Shown here piece by piece: positions 4,077 through 63,975 of a stretch of DNA of 64,000 bases. The translations under genes and the position numbers were made by a program. The notes under the pieces are model-generated. The model saw only the letters and a list, made by a program, of their open reading frames with translations, searched no databases and was not told the origin of the DNA. The first letter of the stretch is position 1; every line of letters begins with the position of its first letter. This DNA is from Cellulomonas sp. NS3 (lineage in GTDB: Bacteria > Actinomycetota > Actinomycetes > Actinomycetales > Cellulomonadaceae): positions 2,914,001 to 2,978,000 of the forward strand of contig NZ_CP103289.1 in assembly GCF_024757985.1 (NCBI RefSeq), written 5' to 3'.

Positions 4077-4151
4077 GCGCCCCAACCTACGACGCGTGCG
4101 ACGCCGGGCGGCACCCGCGTGACCCGCGCCGCAGGACCGGGCGGGTCCCGG

Positions 4152-6470
4152 TCAGCCGACCGGCGCGGCCTCCGGGGAGCGCTCGGCGACGGCGGGCGAC
4201 CGGTCGAGGCGCCCGAGGGGGCTCGGCCACCACGTGCGCCGGCCGAGGTCGTGCACGAGCGCCGGGACGAGCAGGCTCCGCACGACGAGCGTGTCGAGCA
4301 GCACACCGAACGCGACGAGGAACGCGAGCTGCGCGAGGAACAGCAGCGGGATGACGCCGAGCGCGCTGAAGGTCGCCGCGAGCACGATGCCCGCGGAGGT
4401 GATGACGCCACCGGTGACGGCGAGCCCGCGTAGCACGCCCTCGCGCGTCCCGACCTGCAGGGCCTCCTCGCGCACCCGCGTCATCAGGAAGATCGAGTAG
4501 TCGACCCCCAGCGCGACGAGGAACGTGAACGCGTAGAGCGGCACCGCGGGGTCGGCGCCCGGGTAGTCGAGCACGTGGTTGAACACGATCGCCCCGACCC
4601 CGAGCGCCGCGCCGAACGACAGCACGTTCGCGAGCACGAGCAGCACCGCGGCGACGACCGAGCGCAGCAGCAGCATGAGGATGAGCAGGATCACGACCAG
4701 CACGACCGGGACGATCACCCGCAGGTCCCGCGCCCCGGCGACCTGGGTGTCGAGCGTCTGGGCCGCGGCGCCACCGACGAGCGCGTCGGGCGACACGTCC
4801 GCGAGCGCGGCGCGCAGGTCCTCGACGGTGCCCACGGCGGCCTGCGTGTCGGCCGCCTCCTGCGTCGCGACGTCGACCCGGACGCGGCCGTCGACGACGA
4901 CCGGGGGTGCGGGCTCGGCGGCCGGACCGCCGACGCCGCCGGGCGCCCCGCTGCTCTCGCCCGTGTACACCGTGACCGCGTCGACGCCGTCGAGGCCCTC
5001 GGCCGTCTCCACGACGGCGTCGAGGTCCTGCTCGGGTGCCACGACGAGGATCGGCTGGGTCGCGCCGGCCGGGAAGTGCTCGGAGAGCACCTCCTCGCCG
5101 GCGACCGCGTCGACCTCGACGAGGAACACGTCGGACTGGTTGGTGCCGCCGGCCTTGAGGGTCGGCAGGAACGCCGCTCCCGCGACGAGGAGCAGCACCG
5201 TGACGATCCAGACCGGGCGTGCGTGGCGGCCGACGAACCGGGCGACCCCGCCCCACAGACCGGTGAGCACCTCGGCGGTCGGCCGGCGGTGGCCCGGGCC
5301 GTCGTGCTCGGCTCCCGCGACGACCTGCGGCCGGCTGGGCCAGAACAGGGCGCGCGAGCGCGACCCGAACACGAGGAGCAGCGCCGGCAAGAGGGTGAGC
5401 GACGCGAGGAACGCCGACGCGATGCCGATCGCGGCGACGGGGCCGAGGCTCGAGTTGGACGTCAGGTCGGAGAGCAGCAGGCACAGCAGCCCGGCGATCA
5501 CGGTGCCCGCGCTGGCGGCGATGGGCTCGATCGACGCCCGCACCGCGCGTCGCATCGCGGTGAACGGGCTCTGCACGGCGCGCAGCTCCTCGCGGTAGCG
5601 CGCGACGAGGAGCAGCGCGTAGTCCACCGCGGCGCCGACGACGAGGATCGAGAGGATGCCCTGGGACTGCCCGTTGAGCGTGAGCACGTCGTTCGCCGCG
5701 AGCTGGTACACGACGAGCGCGGCCGCGCACAGCGCGAACACCGCGGAGAAGATGACGACGAACGGCAGGAACGGTGACCGGTAGACGATCACGAGGATGA
5801 GCAGGACCGCACCGAGCGCGACGAGCAGCAGCACGCCGTCGATGCCGCCGAACGCGTTGGACAGGTCGGCGACGAAGCCGCCCGGGCCGGTCACCCAGGC
5901 CTGGAGCCCGAGCTCCCCGGCGTCGTCCGCGCTCGCCCCGAGGTCGGCCTCGAGCGCGTCGCGCAGCGCCCGGACCGACGCGCCGGTGACGCTCTCGTCG
6001 TCCGCGAGGCGCCCCTCGGCGGCGTCGCCGTCGAGGGACAGCGGGACGAGCACCGCCTCGCCGTCCTCGGACGGGACGGCGACGGCCGGGCCGGTGAGCA
6101 CGTCCTCGAGCGTCGTGGGGTCGCCGGCGGCCGCGTCGGCGCCCGGGATCTCGACGTCCGCGACCGTCCGGGCGAACTCCTGCACGGCGGTGGTCTGCTC
6201 GGGTGACAGGGCTCCCCCGCCCTGCGCCTCGAGCACGACCAGCACGGGTAGGGTCTCCGAGTCGACGAAGGCGCGTCCCGCCTCGGCCGCGCGCGTGGAC
6301 TGCGCGGACGAGGGCAGGAACGCGGCCGAGTCGTTGGTCTGGACCTGCGAGAGCTTGCCCTGCGCCATCCCCCCGAACGCCCCGACGGCGAGCCAGACGG
6401 CGAGGACGGCGACGAGGGCCAGCGCGCGCAGAGCGGCCCGACCAGATTTACTCAGCATGCTGAGTATCAT
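4152..6470 (-). CDS. MMPL/RND family transporter
   Basis: About 772 residues with MmpL/YdfJ architecture. There is one N-terminal membrane helix (ALALVAVLAVWLAVGAFGG) and a large extracytoplasmic loop. A bundle of helices containing VLLLVALGAVLLILVIVYRS and VGAAVDYALLLVARYREE follows, then a repeat of the same plan ending in VALGVDYSIFLMTRVREE. The paired DY motifs in these helices are the proton-relay positions of the family. Substrates of homologues are lipids or hydrophobic drugs. The start is uncertain between ATG 6470 and ATG 6458. Neither has a Shine-Dalgarno, and a palindromic operator covers both. Divergent from a MarR regulator, which is the classic layout of a repressor-controlled exporter. 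Confidence 0.9.
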   Translation of the reverse strand: MILSMLSKSGRAALRALALVAVLAVWLAVGAFGGMAQGKLSQVQTNDSAAFLPSSAQSTRAAEAGRAFVDSETLPVLVVLEAQGGGALSPEQTTAVQEFARTVADVEIPGADAAAGDPTTLEDVLTGPAVAVPSEDGEAVLVPLSLDGDAAEGRLADDESVTGASVRALRDALEADLGASADDAGELGLQAWVTGPGGFVADLSNAFGGIDGVLLLVALGAVLLILVIVYRSPFLPFVVIFSAVFALCAAALVVYQLAANDVLTLNGQSQGILSILVVGAAVDYALLLVARYREELRAVQSPFTAMRRAVRASIEPIAASAGTVIAGLLCLLLSDLTSNSSLGPVAAIGIASAFLASLTLLPALLLVFGSRSRALFWPSRPQVVAGAEHDGPGHRRPTAEVLTGLWGGVARFVGRHARPVWIVTVLLLVAGAAFLPTLKAGGTNQSDVFLVEVDAVAGEEVLSEHFPAGATQPILVVAPEQDLDAVVETAEGLDGVDAVTVYTGESSGAPGGVGGPAAEPAPPVVVDGRVRVDVATQEAADTQAAVGTVEDLRAALADVSPDALVGGAAAQTLDTQVAGARDLRVIVPVVLVVILLILMLLLRSVVAAVLLVLANVLSFGAALGVGAIVFNHVLDYPGADPAVPLYAFTFLVALGVDYSIFLMTRVREEALQVGTREGVLRGLAVTGGVITSAGIVLAATFSALGVIPLLFLAQLAFLVAFGVLLDTLVVRSLLVPALVHDLGRRTWWPSPLGRLDRSPAVAERSPEAAPVG
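6449..6466. promoter_or_regulatory. Operator 1 of the MarR/MMPL intergenic region
   Basis: A perfect 18-bp palindrome, TACTCAGCATGCTGAGTA. It overlaps the translation start of the MMPL gene and is 50 bp, about five helical turns, from operator 2. The symmetry, length and position fit a MarR-family dimer site; binding itself is inferred. Confidence 0.85.
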
Positions 6471-6498
6471 GAGGGAACGCTGGGCGCCGCGCAACACG

Positions 6499-6516
6499 TG
6501 CTCAGCATGCTGAGCA
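6499..6516. promoter_or_regulatory. Operator 2 of the MarR/MMPL intergenic region
   Basis: A perfect 18-bp palindrome, TGCTCAGCATGCTGAGCA. It shares the 14-bp core CTCAGCATGCTGAG with operator 1 and differs only in the symmetric second and second-last bases. It lies between the divergent marR and MMPL genes. Confidence 0.85.
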
Positions 6517-6558
6517 TCTGGTGAGCGCCGAGGGCGCCGGACGGGGGACGGGGTGGGC

Positions 6559-7128
6559 GTGACCGACGACGCACGTGCTCCCGGCCCCACCGCCCCCTGG
6601 GCGCGGATGGCCTCGGACGACCCGACCGACTGGCCCGTCGGACGGCTGCTGTCGGCCGCCGCGCGCCGCGTCGAGCGCGAGTGGAACGCCCATCTCGCCG
6701 GGTGGGACCTCAACCACGCGAGCCTGCCGGTGCTCGTGCTCCTCGCGCACGAGCCACGCTCGCAGCGCGAGCTCGCCGACGCGTGCAGCGTGACCGAGCA
6801 GACGATGAGCCGCATCCTCGCCCGCATGGAGCGCACCGGGTACGTGACGCGTGCGCCCCACGCCACCGACCGGCGCAAGGTCGTCCTCGCGATCACCGAC
6901 GCGGGCCGCGAGGTCGCGGTCAAGGCGTCCGACCGGCGGCCCGCCGACGCCATGACCACCCGCGGCCTCACCCCGGAGCAGGTCGAGCAGCTGCGGGCGC
7001 TGCTCGCGGTCGTCGCCCGGCCGGCGACGGCGACGGGCCCGAGCGACGGCGCGCCGGACGGCTCGCCGGTCGACACGGACGACGACGCACCCGGCGACGT
7101 GTGCCCCGCCGAGGAACGCACCGCCTGA
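6559..7128 (+). CDS. MarR family transcriptional regulator
   Basis: A winged-helix regulator of about 189 residues. The recognition region is SQRELADACSVTEQTMSRILARMERTGYVTR, and the wing is APHATDRRKVVLAITDAGREV with the conserved DRR. The start is GTG 6559 or GTG 6553; a G-rich GGGGGACGGGG stretch just upstream serves either. The last 35 residues are low-complexity and acidic. It is divergent from the MMPL exporter with two identical-core palindromes between them, so it very likely represses the exporter and itself, with an unknown small ligand. Confidence 0.92.
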   Translation: MTDDARAPGPTAPWARMASDDPTDWPVGRLLSAAARRVEREWNAHLAGWDLNHASLPVLVLLAHEPRSQRELADACSVTEQTMSRILARMERTGYVTRAPHATDRRKVVLAITDAGREVAVKASDRRPADAMTTRGLTPEQVEQLRALLAVVARPATATGPSDGAPDGSPVDTDDDAPGDVCPAEERTA

Positions 7129-7232
7129 GCCGCCCCGGCCCGGCCGCACCGCCGCGGGGCGCGCCGGGCACGCACCGCCGGTGCGACGACCGTCACGCCG
7201 CCGGCGCGCAGCCCCGGGGTTAGCCTGACGCC

Positions 7233-7961
7233 ATGCAGTTCGTCGAGCTCGACCTGGGTGCCCGCCTCCAGCCCTACCGGCCGACGTGGGACCTCCAGCG
7301 CGAGGTGCACGCGGAGGTCGCCGAGGGGACGCGCGAGGACACCGTGCTCCTGTGCGAGCACGAGGACGTCTACACCGCGGGGCGCCGCACGGCGTCGTGG
7401 GACCGGCCGGTCGACGGCACCCCCGTGGTCGACGTCGACCGCGGCGGCCGCATCACCTGGCACGGGCCCGGCCAGCTCGTCGGCTACCCGATCGTGCGCC
7501 TCGCGCAGCCCATCGACGTCGTGCGCTACGTGCGCGCGCTCGAGGAGACGCTGATCCGCACGTGCGCCGACCTCGGGCTGTCCGCCGTGCGCGTCGAGGG
7601 TCGCAGCGGCGTCTGGTTCGCGGCCGAGCCCGACGGGCCGCGCGGTCCGCTCCGGGAGCGCAAGGTCGCCGCGATCGGCGTCCGCGTCGCGAAGGGCGTC
7701 ACGATGCACGGCTTCGCGCTCAACTGCGAGCCGGACCTCGACGCGTTCGGCCGGATCGTGCCGTGCGGGATCCCCGACGCGGACGTCACGTCCCTGAGCG
7801 CCGAGACGGGCCGACGGGTGAGCATCGCCGAGGTGCTCCCGCTCGTGCGCACGCACCTCGAGGCCGCGCTCGCGCTGGTGCGCCTCGCGACCGCGGAGTC
7901 CCGGGCCGTCGGCGACGCCGCCCCCGTCGGCTCCCCGGACGCGGTGCCCGCGCTGCCCTGA
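7233..7961 (+). CDS. lipB: Octanoyl-[ACP]:protein N-octanoyltransferase
   Basis: LipB moves octanoate from acyl carrier protein to lipoyl domains, the first step of lipoate assembly. It shows the family blocks [40 protein letters not shown] and [13 protein letters not shown]. The last contains the catalytic Cys near residue 177, and AKGVTMHG holds the catalytic Lys. Its 242 residues include about 20 extra at the C-terminus. TAGCCT at 7221-7226 ends 6 nt before the ATG, so the message is probably leaderless. It is paired with lipA 0.7 kb downstream. Confidence 0.97.
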
Positions 7962-46677: not shown

Positions 46678-47306
46678 GATGACAACTCTCCTGTCGTTCG
46701 GTAGCTCGGCTGACCCCTGAGGCCCCGTGGCTTTGCGTCCCCACCTTGCGGCGGGTTTGCCGTTTCTCGCTGACGTCCTCAACTATGCATGAACCCGGAC
46801 AACTTCGCAACAACCCCCCGAGGGTGAAACGAACCGCCCAGGGGGCCGATCGGGTGAATCGATGCGCTTCGACGCTGCACATAACACGCTTCACCGGGGC
46901 GCGCATCCTGACCGCCGCCGGACCTGCGGATGGGCCGGAGCAGACGCCCCCATGACGATCTCTCGCCCTCCCGCCGGATTGGTCCTACCCTTGACCCAAC
47001 GCCCAGGCGCGAGCGGGGCGGGTCGCCAGGTGACCACGGCGGGTGACGGGCGCCTCATCTTGTGCGGGTGAGGCGCCCGAACGCCGTCCTCCTCCGTCGC
47101 CGAACGTGACCGAGACGCGTGTCACCCCGTGCCCCAGGGCCCTCACCGTCGCGGCGGACCGTGGAGTCCGCACCCGGGTGCCGCGGCGGCGTCGGCACCC
47201 GTGCCCCGCACGGGCCCTGACCTGCGGCTCTCCCCTCAAGAAGCCGCCGCTCGTGCCGATGCTCCCTCCGGAGAGCCCCCACGTGGCTCGCAGCCGGAGG
47301 AGTCAC
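46678..47306. other. 629-bp intergenic region between bldC and the GGDEF/EAL gene
   Basis: Holds the bldC promoter and 5' leader on one side and the promoter of the large signalling gene on the other. The stretch 46770-46830 is clearly less GC-rich than its surroundings. Frames open here have no ribosome sites or recognisable products. I see no RNA gene. Confidence 0.5.
46782..46810 (-). promoter_or_regulatory. Putative bldC promoter
   Basis: On the minus strand TTGCGA (46810-46805) and CATAGT (46787-46782) are separated by 17 bp, a plausible sigma-70-type promoter. It would give a leader of about 100 nt before bldC. Confidence 0.5.
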
Positions 47307-50300
47307 GTGCCGCACACCTGGACCGTCCTCGCGCTCGCGCGCCACATCGGCGGGTTCTACCACGGTGAGCTGCTCGCCGGGCTGGTGCAGGAGGTGACCG
47401 CGCAGGGCGGTCGCGTCGTCGTGGCCCAGACCGCACCCGAGAAGCCCGAGCTCGACGAGACCGTCGTCGGCGAGACCGCGCTCTCGGTCGCGTGGGACGA
47501 GGCCGACGCGGTCGTCACGATCGCCCTCAGCGCGAGCGCGGCCTTCCTCGAGCGGATGCTCGAGCTCGGCAAGCCCGTCGTGCTCACGAGCCAGCGGGTC
47601 GACGGCGTCGAGGCGCCCGTCGCGCTGCCGGACAACCACGGCGGCATCCACGCGGCCGTGGAGCACCTGCGCGCGCACGGGCACACCCGCATCGGGTTCG
47701 TCGGGGACCTGCGGCAGTACGACTACCAGGAGCGCCACCTCGCGTACCGGGACGCGCTCGCCGCGCACGGGCTCACCCCGCGCGACGAGCTGCTGGTCGT
47801 GGCGCGGGACTGGTCGGAGGCCGCGGGCGAGGAGGCCGCCCGCGCGCTGCTCGACCGTCCCGATCGGCCCGACGCGGTGGTCACCGCGTCCGGGCACAAC
47901 GCGATCGGTCTCATCCGCGGGCTCGCCGCCGCGGGGGTGCGCGTGCCCGAGGACGTCGCGGTCCTCGCGTTCGACAACGTCGAGCAGGGCGCGTACGCGA
48001 CCCCGAGCCTGTCGAGCGTGCACCAGCGGTTCGACGAGGTCGGGGCGCTGGCCGGGTCGCTCGTCATGCGCGCCCTGCGAGGCGAGCACGTGCCCGCGGG
48101 CAGCCACGTCGCCGAGGCCACGGTCGTCGTCCCGCGCGGCTCGTGCGGGTGCCGCAACGACGTGCTCACCGCCCGGTCGGCCCCTGGGTCCCGCGCCGCC
48201 GGCGTACCCGTGCAGCCCGACGACCTCCACCGCACCCTGTCGACCCTGCTCGCCGGGCAGCACCCCGGGACCGTCACCCCCGACGCGACGGTGGGCCTCG
48301 CCCGCGAGCTCGAGCGCCTCCTGCAGCGCGGCGACGACCTGACCGGGGCGGACCTCGACGGGCTGCTCGCGCTCATGCGCGACGTCGCACCCGGGGACGA
48401 CGCGCTGCACCGGGTCACCTCGGTGCTCACCGAGCACGTGCAGCGGTTGATGAGCACGGGGAGCTCCACGGGCGCGAGCCCGCACGCCGCCGCCCTGAGC
48501 CGGGTCGCCGCGGCGCTCTGGCAGCTGCAGAACCACGGCTCGGTGCAGCAGGCGCACGTCCTCGCCCACCACGTGCTCGAGGGCTCCGACGTCGCGGCGG
48601 CGCTGCTGCGCGCCGACGCGGACGCGGCGCGCGGGCTCGGCTGGCTCGCGCAGACCCACTCGCGCGCGGGGCTGCTCGCGCTGTGGGACGACGCCGCGCC
48701 CGGTTCGCCGCTGCGGCTCGCGGGGGTCCACGACCCCGACGGTCTCCTCGACCACCGCGTCGGCGACGAGCTCGACTGGCGCCGGTTCCCGCCGTCCGAC
48801 CTCGTCGGGGCCGCCGACGGCGCCCAGGGCGAGGTGTGCCTCGTCGTGCCGATCCGGACCCCGGCGCGGCGCTGGGGGCTCCTCGCCGTCCTCGGCGTCG
48901 TGAACTCCCGGTCGAGCCACGAGGCGTACCACCACTGGGCCACGCTTCTCGCCTCCGTGCTCGAGGGCGAGGAGCTCGCGCTCAGCGCGCGCGCGAGCGA
49001 GGCCCGGTACGCGCACGCCGCGCGCGCCGCGAACGACGGCCTCTGGGAGCTCGACGTCGCCACGCGCGCCATGCACGTCTCGCCGCGGGGCCGCCAGCTC
49101 CTCGGCCTCGACGCCGACGCGCCCGCGCGCCTGGAGCGCTGGACCGAGGTGACGCACCCCGAGGACCAGGAGCGCGTGCGCGCCTCCTTCGCGCAGGCGC
49201 TCGACACCCCCGAGGTCCCCGTCGAGGTCGAGTACCGCCTGCGCAGGCCCGACGGGACGTACCGGTGGCTGCTCAGCCGCGGCCTCGGCGTCGCCGCCGG
49301 GCCCTCCGGACGTGCGGCCCGGCTCGTCGGCTCGCTGAGCGACATCCACCCGCGCAAGGAGCTCGAGGAGCAGCTGCGCGCGGCCGCTCTCTACGACCAC
49401 CTGACCGGCCTGCCGAACCGGCGGCTCTTCCTCGAGCGCCTGACGGCGGCCGTCGAGCAGCACCGCCGCGAGCCCGGGTCGCGGTTCGCCGTCCTGTTCT
49501 TCGACCTCGACGGGTTCAAGCTGGTCAACGACTCGCTCGGCCACCTCATGGGCGACCAGCTGCTGCTCGCCGTCGCGGAGCGCCTGCGCACCCAGGTCCG
49601 CGGCGTCGACACGGCCGCGCGGTTCGGCGGCGACGAGTTCGCCGTCCTGCTCGCGGAGCCCGAGCCCGACGAGCTGCTCGCGATCGCGCAGCGCATCCAG
49701 GAGCGGATCTCCGCGCCCGTCGAGCTGGCCGGTCACGAGGTCGAGGTCACGGCGAGCGTCGGGGTCGCCACGTCGTCCGGGGAGTACACCGACCCCGAGG
49801 ACGTGCTGCGCGACGCGGACATCGCGATGTACGACGCCAAGGGCAGCGAGCGCGGCTCCGCGTCGGTGTTCGACCCGACGATGCACGTGCGTGCGACGGT
49901 GCGGCTGCGGGCCCGCGGCGAGCTGCGCACCGCCCTCGCCCGCAGCGAGTTCGTGGTGCACTACCAGCCGATCGTGCCGCTCGACGGGTCGGGGCTCGAG
50001 CACTTCGAGGCGCTCGTGCGCTGGGAGCATCCTGAGCGCGGGCTGCTGCTCCCCGGGGACTTCCTCGCCGCGATGGAGGACAACGCCACGATCGTGACGC
50101 TCGGCAGCTGGGTCGTCGACGAGGTGTGCCGTCAGATCGCCGCCTGGTCCCAGGACTACCCCGGGGCGGTCGCCGTCGCGGTCAACCTCTCGCACCGCGA
50201 GTTCTGGGCGCCCGCGCTGCTCCGGACGGTGACCGACTCGCTCGCCCGTCACCGGGTCCCCGCCCGCAGCCTGATCCTCGAGATCACGGAGTCCGTGATC

Positions 50301-50708
50301 ATGGCCGACCCGGCCGTCGCGCGGACGGTGATGACGGACCTGCGGGCGCTCGGCGTGCGGCTGCACATCGACGACTTCGGGACCGGGCAGTCCTCGCTCA
50401 ACGCCCTGCGGACGTTCCCGGTCGACGCGCTCAAGATCGACGGCGCGTTCATCCGTGAGCTCGAGGTCGTCGAGCAGACGACCGAGCTCGTGCGGATCAT
50501 CGTCGAGATGGGCCGGGTGCTCGGCATCGAGGTCGTCGCGGAGTGCGTCGAGACGCCGTCGCAGGCGGACCGGCTGCGGTCGATGGGGTGCGCGAACGCG
50601 CAGGGCTGGCTCTACGCGCGGGCGCTGCCCGGCGCCGAGGCGGGCGCGCTGCTCGGGCACTCGCTCGCGTCGGACGCGGTGGACGCGTCCGGGCCCGGGA
50701 GCCGCTGA
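47307..50708 (+). CDS. Diguanylate cyclase/phosphodiesterase with LacI-type sugar-sensor domain
   Basis: An 1133-residue cytosolic protein. Residues 1-290 are a LacI/PBP1-type ligand domain without DNA-binding region (TWTVLALARHIGGFYHGELL, HTRIGFVGDLRQYDYQERH, DVAVLAFDNVEQGAYATPSL). A GAF-like region (about 440-560) and a PAS domain (570-690) follow. Next is GGDEF at about 773 with the inhibitory RxxD site five residues before it (RGVDTAARFGGDEF), and EAL from about 900 (FEALVRWEHP, DDFGTGQSSL, KIDGAFI). Both catalytic sets look intact. GTG 47307 has a perfect GGAGGAG 6 nt upstream; no signal peptide or membrane helix. It likely couples a sugar to c-di-GMP level. Confidence 0.93.
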   Translation: MPHTWTVLALARHIGGFYHGELLAGLVQEVTAQGGRVVVAQTAPEKPELDETVVGETALSVAWDEADAVVTIALSASAAFLERMLELGKPVVLTSQRVDGVEAPVALPDNHGGIHAAVEHLRAHGHTRIGFVGDLRQYDYQERHLAYRDALAAHGLTPRDELLVVARDWSEAAGEEAARALLDRPDRPDAVVTASGHNAIGLIRGLAAAGVRVPEDVAVLAFDNVEQGAYATPSLSSVHQRFDEVGALAGSLVMRALRGEHVPAGSHVAEATVVVPRGSCGCRNDVLTARSAPGSRAAGVPVQPDDLHRTLSTLLAGQHPGTVTPDATVGLARELERLLQRGDDLTGADLDGLLALMRDVAPGDDALHRVTSVLTEHVQRLMSTGSSTGASPHAAALSRVAAALWQLQNHGSVQQAHVLAHHVLEGSDVAAALLRADADAARGLGWLAQTHSRAGLLALWDDAAPGSPLRLAGVHDPDGLLDHRVGDELDWRRFPPSDLVGAADGAQGEVCLVVPIRTPARRWGLLAVLGVVNSRSSHEAYHHWATLLASVLEGEELALSARASEARYAHAARAANDGLWELDVATRAMHVSPRGRQLLGLDADAPARLERWTEVTHPEDQERVRASFAQALDTPEVPVEVEYRLRRPDGTYRWLLSRGLGVAAGPSGRAARLVGSLSDIHPRKELEEQLRAAALYDHLTGLPNRRLFLERLTAAVEQHRREPGSRFAVLFFDLDGFKLVNDSLGHLMGDQLLLAVAERLRTQVRGVDTAARFGGDEFAVLLAEPEPDELLAIAQRIQERISAPVELAGHEVEVTASVGVATSSGEYTDPEDVLRDADIAMYDAKGSERGSASVFDPTMHVRATVRLRARGELRTALARSEFVVHYQPIVPLDGSGLEHFEALVRWEHPERGLLLPGDFLAAMEDNATIVTLGSWVVDEVCRQIAAWSQDYPGAVAVAVNLSHREFWAPALLRTVTDSLARHRVPARSLILEITESVIMADPAVARTVMTDLRALGVRLHIDDFGTGQSSLNALRTFPVDALKIDGAFIRELEVVEQTTELVRIIVEMGRVLGIEVVAECVETPSQADRLRSMGCANAQGWLYARALPGAEAGALLGHSLASDAVDASGPGSR

Positions 50709-62832: not shown

Positions 62833-63975
62833 TCAGGCGCGCTCGAGACGGCCTGGATCGGCGTCAGCGACGACGACGAGATCCCGCCCGGCGAGCTTCG
62901 CGTCGTACAGCGCAGCGTCCGCCGCGGCATAGAGACGATCGAGGTCGTCAGGGTCGTCCGTGTGCACGACCCCGATGCTGACCGTCATCGGGATATCCCC
63001 CGTCGGGGCGGGGAACGGCGTCTCACGGACGGCCGCGTGCACGGCTCGCGCCAGGTCGACCACGCCGTCACGCGGGCCCGAGAGCAGGATCGCGAGCTCG
63101 TCGCCCCCGATCCGGGCGACCGTGTCGCCACGACGCACGACGGACCGCACGAGTTGGGCGACGTGCACGAGGGCGGCGTCGCCGACAGGGTGGCCGTGGG
63201 TGTCGTTCAGCTGCTTGAAACGGTCGACGTCGACGAGCACGAGCCCCGCTCCCTCGGCCGGTTGCGTCGAACGCCGCCGCGCTGCTGTGTGTGCCTCTGT
63301 CCGCAGGAGCTCCGCCGACTGCTCCAGGACGCGTCGGGTCGCGAGCCCCGTCAGCGAGTCGCTCGATGCGACCTCGTTGAGCCGTTGGACGAGCTGGTCC
63401 TGATGTCGGACCGCCGCGAGCAGCGCCGTCGTCGTCATCACGACGACTGCGGCCATGGACGCCAGGTCGGCACCGGCCGATCCCGAGGGCTGCGTCGAGA
63501 GGATGATCGTGGAGGCCCCGACGAGCGCGAGGACGGCCACGGTCCAGGCCACGAGGTGGCGCAGATGCGCCGCGGCGAAGATGACGGGGAACGTGAACCA
63601 CGCGAGGCCGCCGAAAGTGGAGTCTCCGCTCAGGTTCGACGTCGTGGTGTTGACCACCAGCGCGACCATGCACATCACCGTGTACGCCGGTCCGGGCACG
63701 ATCTCGGGACGGCGGCGCAGGAGCAGAGCGAGCCCGAACATGATGACGGTACCGACCACGGTCCACGCGGCGCTCGCCGCTGTGCCGCGGTAGTCGCCCA
63801 GCAGCTGCGGAAGCGTCTCGAGCGCGACGGTGGCGACACCGCCCACGAGGCACATCACCGAGGCGGTCCGCCCCGCGGCGACAGCGTCGCGGGGGCTGAA
63901 CAGCTCGAGGGCGCGCACGTCGACCCATCGGCTCGCCGGCGCGCCGCTCCAGGCGTTCGGGGCGATGTCACCCAC
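62833..63975 (-). CDS. Membrane diguanylate cyclase
   Basis: A 380-residue protein with about six membrane helices (for example AASAAWTVVGTVIMFGLALLL and LVAWTVAVLALVGASTIIL) and a C-terminal GGDEF domain. The active-site sequence is IGGDELAILLSG. An RxxD inhibitory site stands five residues earlier (RRGDTVARIGGDEL), so product inhibition is likely. It makes c-di-GMP from GTP. The start is GTG 63975, but the frame is open to the window end, so a longer N-terminus is possible. Whether it belongs to the decayed element or to the chromosome is unclear. Confidence 0.9.
   Translation of the reverse strand: MGDIAPNAWSGAPASRWVDVRALELFSPRDAVAAGRTASVMCLVGGVATVALETLPQLLGDYRGTAASAAWTVVGTVIMFGLALLLRRRPEIVPGPAYTVMCMVALVVNTTTSNLSGDSTFGGLAWFTFPVIFAAAHLRHLVAWTVAVLALVGASTIILSTQPSGSAGADLASMAAVVVMTTTALLAAVRHQDQLVQRLNEVASSDSLTGLATRRVLEQSAELLRTEAHTAARRRSTQPAEGAGLVLVDVDRFKQLNDTHGHPVGDAALVHVAQLVRSVVRRGDTVARIGGDELAILLSGPRDGVVDLARAVHAAVRETPFPAPTGDIPMTVSIGVVHTDDPDDLDRLYAAADAALYDAKLAGRDLVVVADADPGRLERA

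Follow-up and report, generated by a model that had tools for sequence, protein, structure and literature searches.

The gene and its start

The window, i.e., the whole stretch of 64,000 nucleotides of the Cellulomonas sp. NS3 genome that was analysed, carries on its forward strand a gene whose features are listed below with the evidence for each.

47296..47302, +, Shine-Dalgarno sequence GGAGGAG, 4 nt 5' of the GTG; also in the C. cellasea orthologue
47307..50708, +, whole gene, 1133 aa, GTG start, TGA stop at 50706-50708; open reading frame and codon-position substitution bias
47307..48155, +, LacI/PBP1-type ligand-binding core, residues 1-283; Pfam, phmmer, AlphaFold2 model and Foldseek
48141..48152, +, SCGC motif, residues 279-282, a family hallmark directly after the PBP1 core
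48216..48611, +, helical bundle and long helix, residues 304-435; AlphaFold2 models, without a Pfam match
48612..48986, +, GAF-like domain, residues 436-560; Foldseek, without a Pfam match
49071..49331, +, PAS_3 domain, residues 589-675; Pfam, 8.2e-19
49386..49853, +, GGDEF domain, residues 694-849; Pfam, 6.2e-46, with RxxD at 765-768 and GGDEF at 774-778
49920..50621, +, EAL domain, residues 872-1105; Pfam, 2.5e-67, alignments to MorA and MucR, and motif positions

The gene is real and intact. Its mismatches to the C. cellasea orthologue, which is 89% identical over the sensor, number 45/41/232 by codon position, i.e., the third-position bias extends over the whole gene. The open frame 5' of the GTG, compared in the same way, gives 29/24/23; it shows no codon bias and is therefore non-coding, so that no helix-turn-helix is missing from the annotated protein. 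An earlier note on this DNA, made from the sequence alone, had proposed that the start is fixed by GGAGGAG and that no helix-turn-helix lies upstream, and both proposals held up: the GTG start is supported by the conservation of GGAGGAG in C. cellasea and by a codon bias confined to the downstream side, and an upstream helix-turn-helix is ruled out by a frame that has neither codon bias nor any Pfam match. Pfam likewise found no helix-turn-helix within the window protein, which thus lacks the N-terminal LacI helix-turn-helix that marks a LacI-family transcription factor.

No membrane helix is predicted, the highest mean Kyte-Doolittle value over any 19 residues being 1.38, and on this ground a membrane-bound or exported receptor was rejected. 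This supports the earlier view of a soluble, cytosolic protein, whose ligand would then be cytosolic as well.

Domain layout of the sensor

The first 290 residues had been read as a LacI/PBP1 ligand domain, and profile searches bear this out with significant matches over both lobes, namely Peripla_BP_3 at residues 118-280 (1.8e-34) and Peripla_BP_1 at residues 21-255 (6.4e-13). For the first 293 residues the best match in the PDB is an ancestral LacI (9nt3, 9.9e-30 by phmmer), and Foldseek matches the AlphaFold2 model of the core to LacI-family structures, among them RbsR with bound ribose and CelR with bound cellobiose.

Pfam has no match for residues 284-560, which are nevertheless conserved in relatives. 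AlphaFold2 models were confident both for residues 1-561 (pLDDT 89.2, pTM 0.88) and for residues 284-561 (pLDDT 89.7, pTM 0.76), and predict for this middle region a helical bundle and a long helix followed by a mixed alpha/beta domain (455-560). The top Foldseek matches of the alpha/beta domain are mostly GAF domains, at a probability of about 1.00 and E-values of about 1e-3 to 5e-2. The GAF-PAS-GGDEF-EAL order given in the earlier note therefore stands for PAS, GGDEF and EAL by Pfam; at the level of the predicted fold, the GAF label fits the second half of the middle region only, the first half being a helical bundle, and a plain GAF domain throughout is ruled out.

A widespread family of sensors

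The architecture is not as rare as the earlier note had implied. The genome of this strain has 38 GGDEF matches and encodes four proteins with a PBP1 core plus the middle region, one of which, the paralogue at 2367074, matches GGDEF weakly (46 bits) and EAL not at all. The family is widespread, with 472 relatives in one scan of genome contigs, and a 2022 review (PMC8846402) already mentions this pairing of domains.

The best 80 of the 472 relatives were kept. Among these, [ST]CGC follows the PBP1 core in 79 loci, and the predicted N-terminal extension before the core is shorter than 35 aa in 76; the scan of two of the four loci with a long extension found no helix-turn-helix. Most of the 80 have a GGDEF domain and many an EAL domain too, the outputs that follow the sensor being GGDEF-EAL, GGDEF, degenerate GGDEF and, in distant phyla, histidine kinases. 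Eight relatives were scanned with Pfam: two, from Chloroflexota/Dormibacterota, are HisKA-HATPase proteins, and in the others the output is GGDEF or GGDEF-EAL, or GGDEF is matched weakly or not at all. The occurrence of the same sensor on GGDEF-EAL proteins, on GGDEF alone and on histidine kinases is as expected of an input module.

In an alignment of 62 relatives, C280 and G281 are invariant (62/62) and C282 is present in 61. The window protein shares the features by which we group the family, i.e., a PBP1 core, RxSCGC, a conserved middle region of 270 aa and no helix-turn-helix, and in a tree of 62 sensors it pairs with its C. cellasea orthologue (100/100), followed by L087 and L109 (99/99). 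Judged by sequence, it is a member of a widespread family known from sequences only, the sensor class of which already appears in PMC8846402.

At the level of the order, the middle region was found in 17 of 198 genomes, and one of these genomes (G392, locus L193) has ten copies of it. A search across the phylum recovered the middle region from the strain's own genome only among 347 sampled, a weak negative with seven candidates scored per genome, and a phylum search with the whole sensor returned mostly ordinary LacI cores. Four loci from several Cellulomonas (L103, L108, L110 and L112) hold relatives with a weak or no GGDEF motif; these have in common a divergent upstream gene, which codes for a LacI transcription factor in L103 and shows 67-77% identity in the other loci, and, on the downstream side, a gene for about 585-612 aa. 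L117 resembles them on the upstream side.

The ligand pocket

Residues N110, D139, R143 and D223 are invariant in the family alignment (62/62). From the phmmer alignments and the numbering of LacI, we take R143 to be LacI R197, D223 to be D274, W169 to be W220 and F242 to be F293. At other pocket positions the window lineage departs from its relatives: position 169 is W in the window protein and N in 42 of the 62, position 195 is S in the window lineage and T in 46, and position 196, which is D in 60, is G in both the window protein and its orthologue. The W at 169 and the S at 195, one aromatic and one polar, are also present in C. cellasea. These changes suggest that the ligand of the window protein may differ from that of its relatives.

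The LacI-like residues of the pocket, together with the closest solved relatives, make a sugar or sugar derivative a plausible cytosolic ligand. Equivalents of R143 and D223 occur also in the purine-binding PurR, and these residues are therefore no proof of a sugar. The core could instead bind a non-sugar cytosolic metabolite (a purine, a nucleotide or an amino-acid derivative) and report metabolic state instead of carbohydrate supply. PurR is among the LacI-family matches, and downstream of the family member in L126 come genes for an arginine-deiminase-family protein, a solute-binding protein of an amino-acid-type ABC system and an ABC ATPase; the closest solved relatives, however, are mostly sugar-responsive or ancestral (LacI, RbsR, CcpA and CelR), and aromatic residues (W169 and F242) occupy sugar-pocket positions of LacI, so we regard a non-sugar ligand as unlikely. 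We give still less credence to a core that has lost ligand binding and become a dimerisation platform or a protein-interaction surface, as in CcpA, which responds mainly to HPr-Ser-P and is among the closest solved relatives: the family-conserved positions 169, 195 and 196 have changed in the window lineage, and the degenerate GGDEF of some family members indicates that sensor and enzyme can drift, but R143, D223, N110 and D139 do not vary among the 62 relatives, and the aromatic W169 and the polar S195 are kept in C. cellasea.

The gene neighbourhood

In the window, the gene lies near genes for a beta-ketoacyl synthase, a deformylase, a MerR-type helix-turn-helix protein, DUF5655 and DUF2231 proteins, an LPMO_10-CBM2 protein and a PfkB protein, in an arrangement that, of the loci searched, C. 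cellasea alone shares. The LPMO gene is three genes downstream, and this synteny too is kept in no examined locus but that of C. cellasea. No sugar theme emerges from 65 neighbour genes of relatives, which include a single GH9 and a single GH43 gene, with DEAD-box helicases as the commonest family; one GH6 gene was found in another set of relatives' neighbours. Operon context was accordingly discarded as a clue to the ligand, with the window neighbours shared only with C. cellasea and the relatives' neighbours showing no sugar theme. The suggestion of cello-oligosaccharides as the ligand found no specific support, in that the relatives' neighbours are not enriched in sugar genes and the synteny of the nearby LPMO gene extends, in these loci, to C. 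cellasea alone. A second GGDEF gene is present in the window at 62881-63366 on the reverse strand (G000:C1:2976881-2977366).

The catalytic half

The best solved relatives of the catalytic half are the GGDEF-EAL enzymes MorA (7.8e-97) and MucR (1.2e-88, phmmer against the PDB), which resemble the window protein in this half and in its motif set and differ from it in their input domains. Catalytic motifs were judged by eye against the aligned structures of both. RxxD (R765-D768) ends five residues before GGDEF (774-778), and the EAL domain has EALVRW, VNLSHREF, LEITES, DDFGTG, LKID, VAECVET and AQGWL. The key GGDEF, RxxD and EAL motifs thus look intact, as the earlier note had described them, and together they make up the set by which a bifunctional GGDEF-EAL protein is recognised, from which both diguanylate cyclase and phosphodiesterase activities are predicted.

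Tandem GGDEF-EAL proteins, on the other hand, often have one dominant activity. A single active catalytic domain in the window protein, e.g., a phosphodiesterase with a GTP-binding, regulatory GGDEF domain, is a serious alternative to bifunctionality, to which we would give somewhat less than even odds. Against it, the window protein keeps its GGDEF, RxxD and EAL motifs, unlike the paralogue at 2367074. This alternative concerns the output and is compatible with our reading of the sensor.

Comparison with known systems

The core is like that of the LacI/GalR family (LacI, RbsR, CcpA and CelR) in fold, profile match and invariant R and D pocket positions. In contrast to members of that family, the window protein has no helix-turn-helix head, carries the SCGC motif and is built to drive enzymes, not DNA binding.

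Domains of the PBP clan are frequent in c-di-GMP proteins. According to the 2022 review (PMC8846402), SBP_bac_3 alone has been studied in these networks, and LacI-type Peripla_BP is among the c-di-GMP sensor domains without a tested role; the window protein has a sensor of this same class. The consulted sections of that review make no mention of the helical and GAF-like segment or of the RxSCGC signature. The arginine sensor RmcA of Pseudomonas aeruginosa, as described there, also has a binding-protein-type input on a c-di-GMP enzyme. Its input is of the SBP_bac_3 class of the PBP clan and is described as periplasmic (PMC8846402), whereas the window protein has a LacI/PBP1 core, no membrane helix, and additional helical and GAF-like segments. 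The aml cluster of Actinoplanes, with a maltase, a LacI regulator and a GGDEF-EAL protein, is suggestive, but only GGDEF and EAL are reported for the latter in the parts consulted of PMC6828939, and it was set aside. No experimentally studied LacI-type cyclase was found in the literature searched, most subscription journals being outside the reach of that search.

Proposed mechanism

Our preferred reading, to which we assign a probability of roughly 60%, is that the window protein turns over c-di-GMP in the cytosol and takes its input from a LacI/PBP1 small-molecule sensor, and that a ligand, most likely a sugar, shifts its balance of cyclase and phosphodiesterase activity. The two lobes of the PBP1 core would close on an intracellular ligand, probably a sugar or a derivative of one. 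This movement would be relayed via the SCGC linker, the helical bundle, and the GAF-like and PAS segments and alter the geometry of a dimer, and this in turn would shift the balance between diguanylate cyclase (GGDEF, product-inhibited via RxxD) and phosphodiesterase (EAL). The ligand class, the two enzyme activities, the sign of the response and its output are inferred elements of this model. If the model is correct, the family would link an internal metabolite directly to c-di-GMP in actinobacteria, cellulose degraders among them. Being soluble, its members are convenient for binding and activity assays.

PilZ genes and other neighbours of the family

Effectors that would respond to the change in c-di-GMP may include the PilZ protein whose gene adjoins that of a paralogue, with flagellar motility or adhesion as the plausible output. 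In the strain's own genome a single PilZ gene was detected (G000:C1:4132987-4133229, reverse strand; in L021, 8949-9860); it is tail-to-tail with the paralogue at 4128375, not with the window gene, and the genome has two flagellin genes. Counting this one, PilZ genes stand beside family members in 12 loci in all; tblastn with it found homologues in L024/L098, L069-L072, L029, L100, L102, L075, L104 and L107, and Pfam confirmed PilZ in six of these and in L021. This adjacency is found on several separate branches of the family, with shared inheritance explaining some of it, and makes the PilZ protein a candidate effector.

A broader and more speculative picture, which we consider possible but on balance doubtful, is that of a cytosolic carbohydrate-sensor family that sets c-di-GMP directly while the neighbouring PilZ protein reads it, so that sugar taken up would switch cells between swimming and attachment; in the window protein, the pocket would have been re-tuned to a different sugar.

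Among the three genes downstream of the family member in L126 (at 4082-7466), that for the solute-binding protein is of the SBP_bac_3 type; the layout of L133 is comparable in gene sizes only. Tandem pairs of full-length PBP1-GGDEF-EAL genes occur in L091, L094, L111 and L113.
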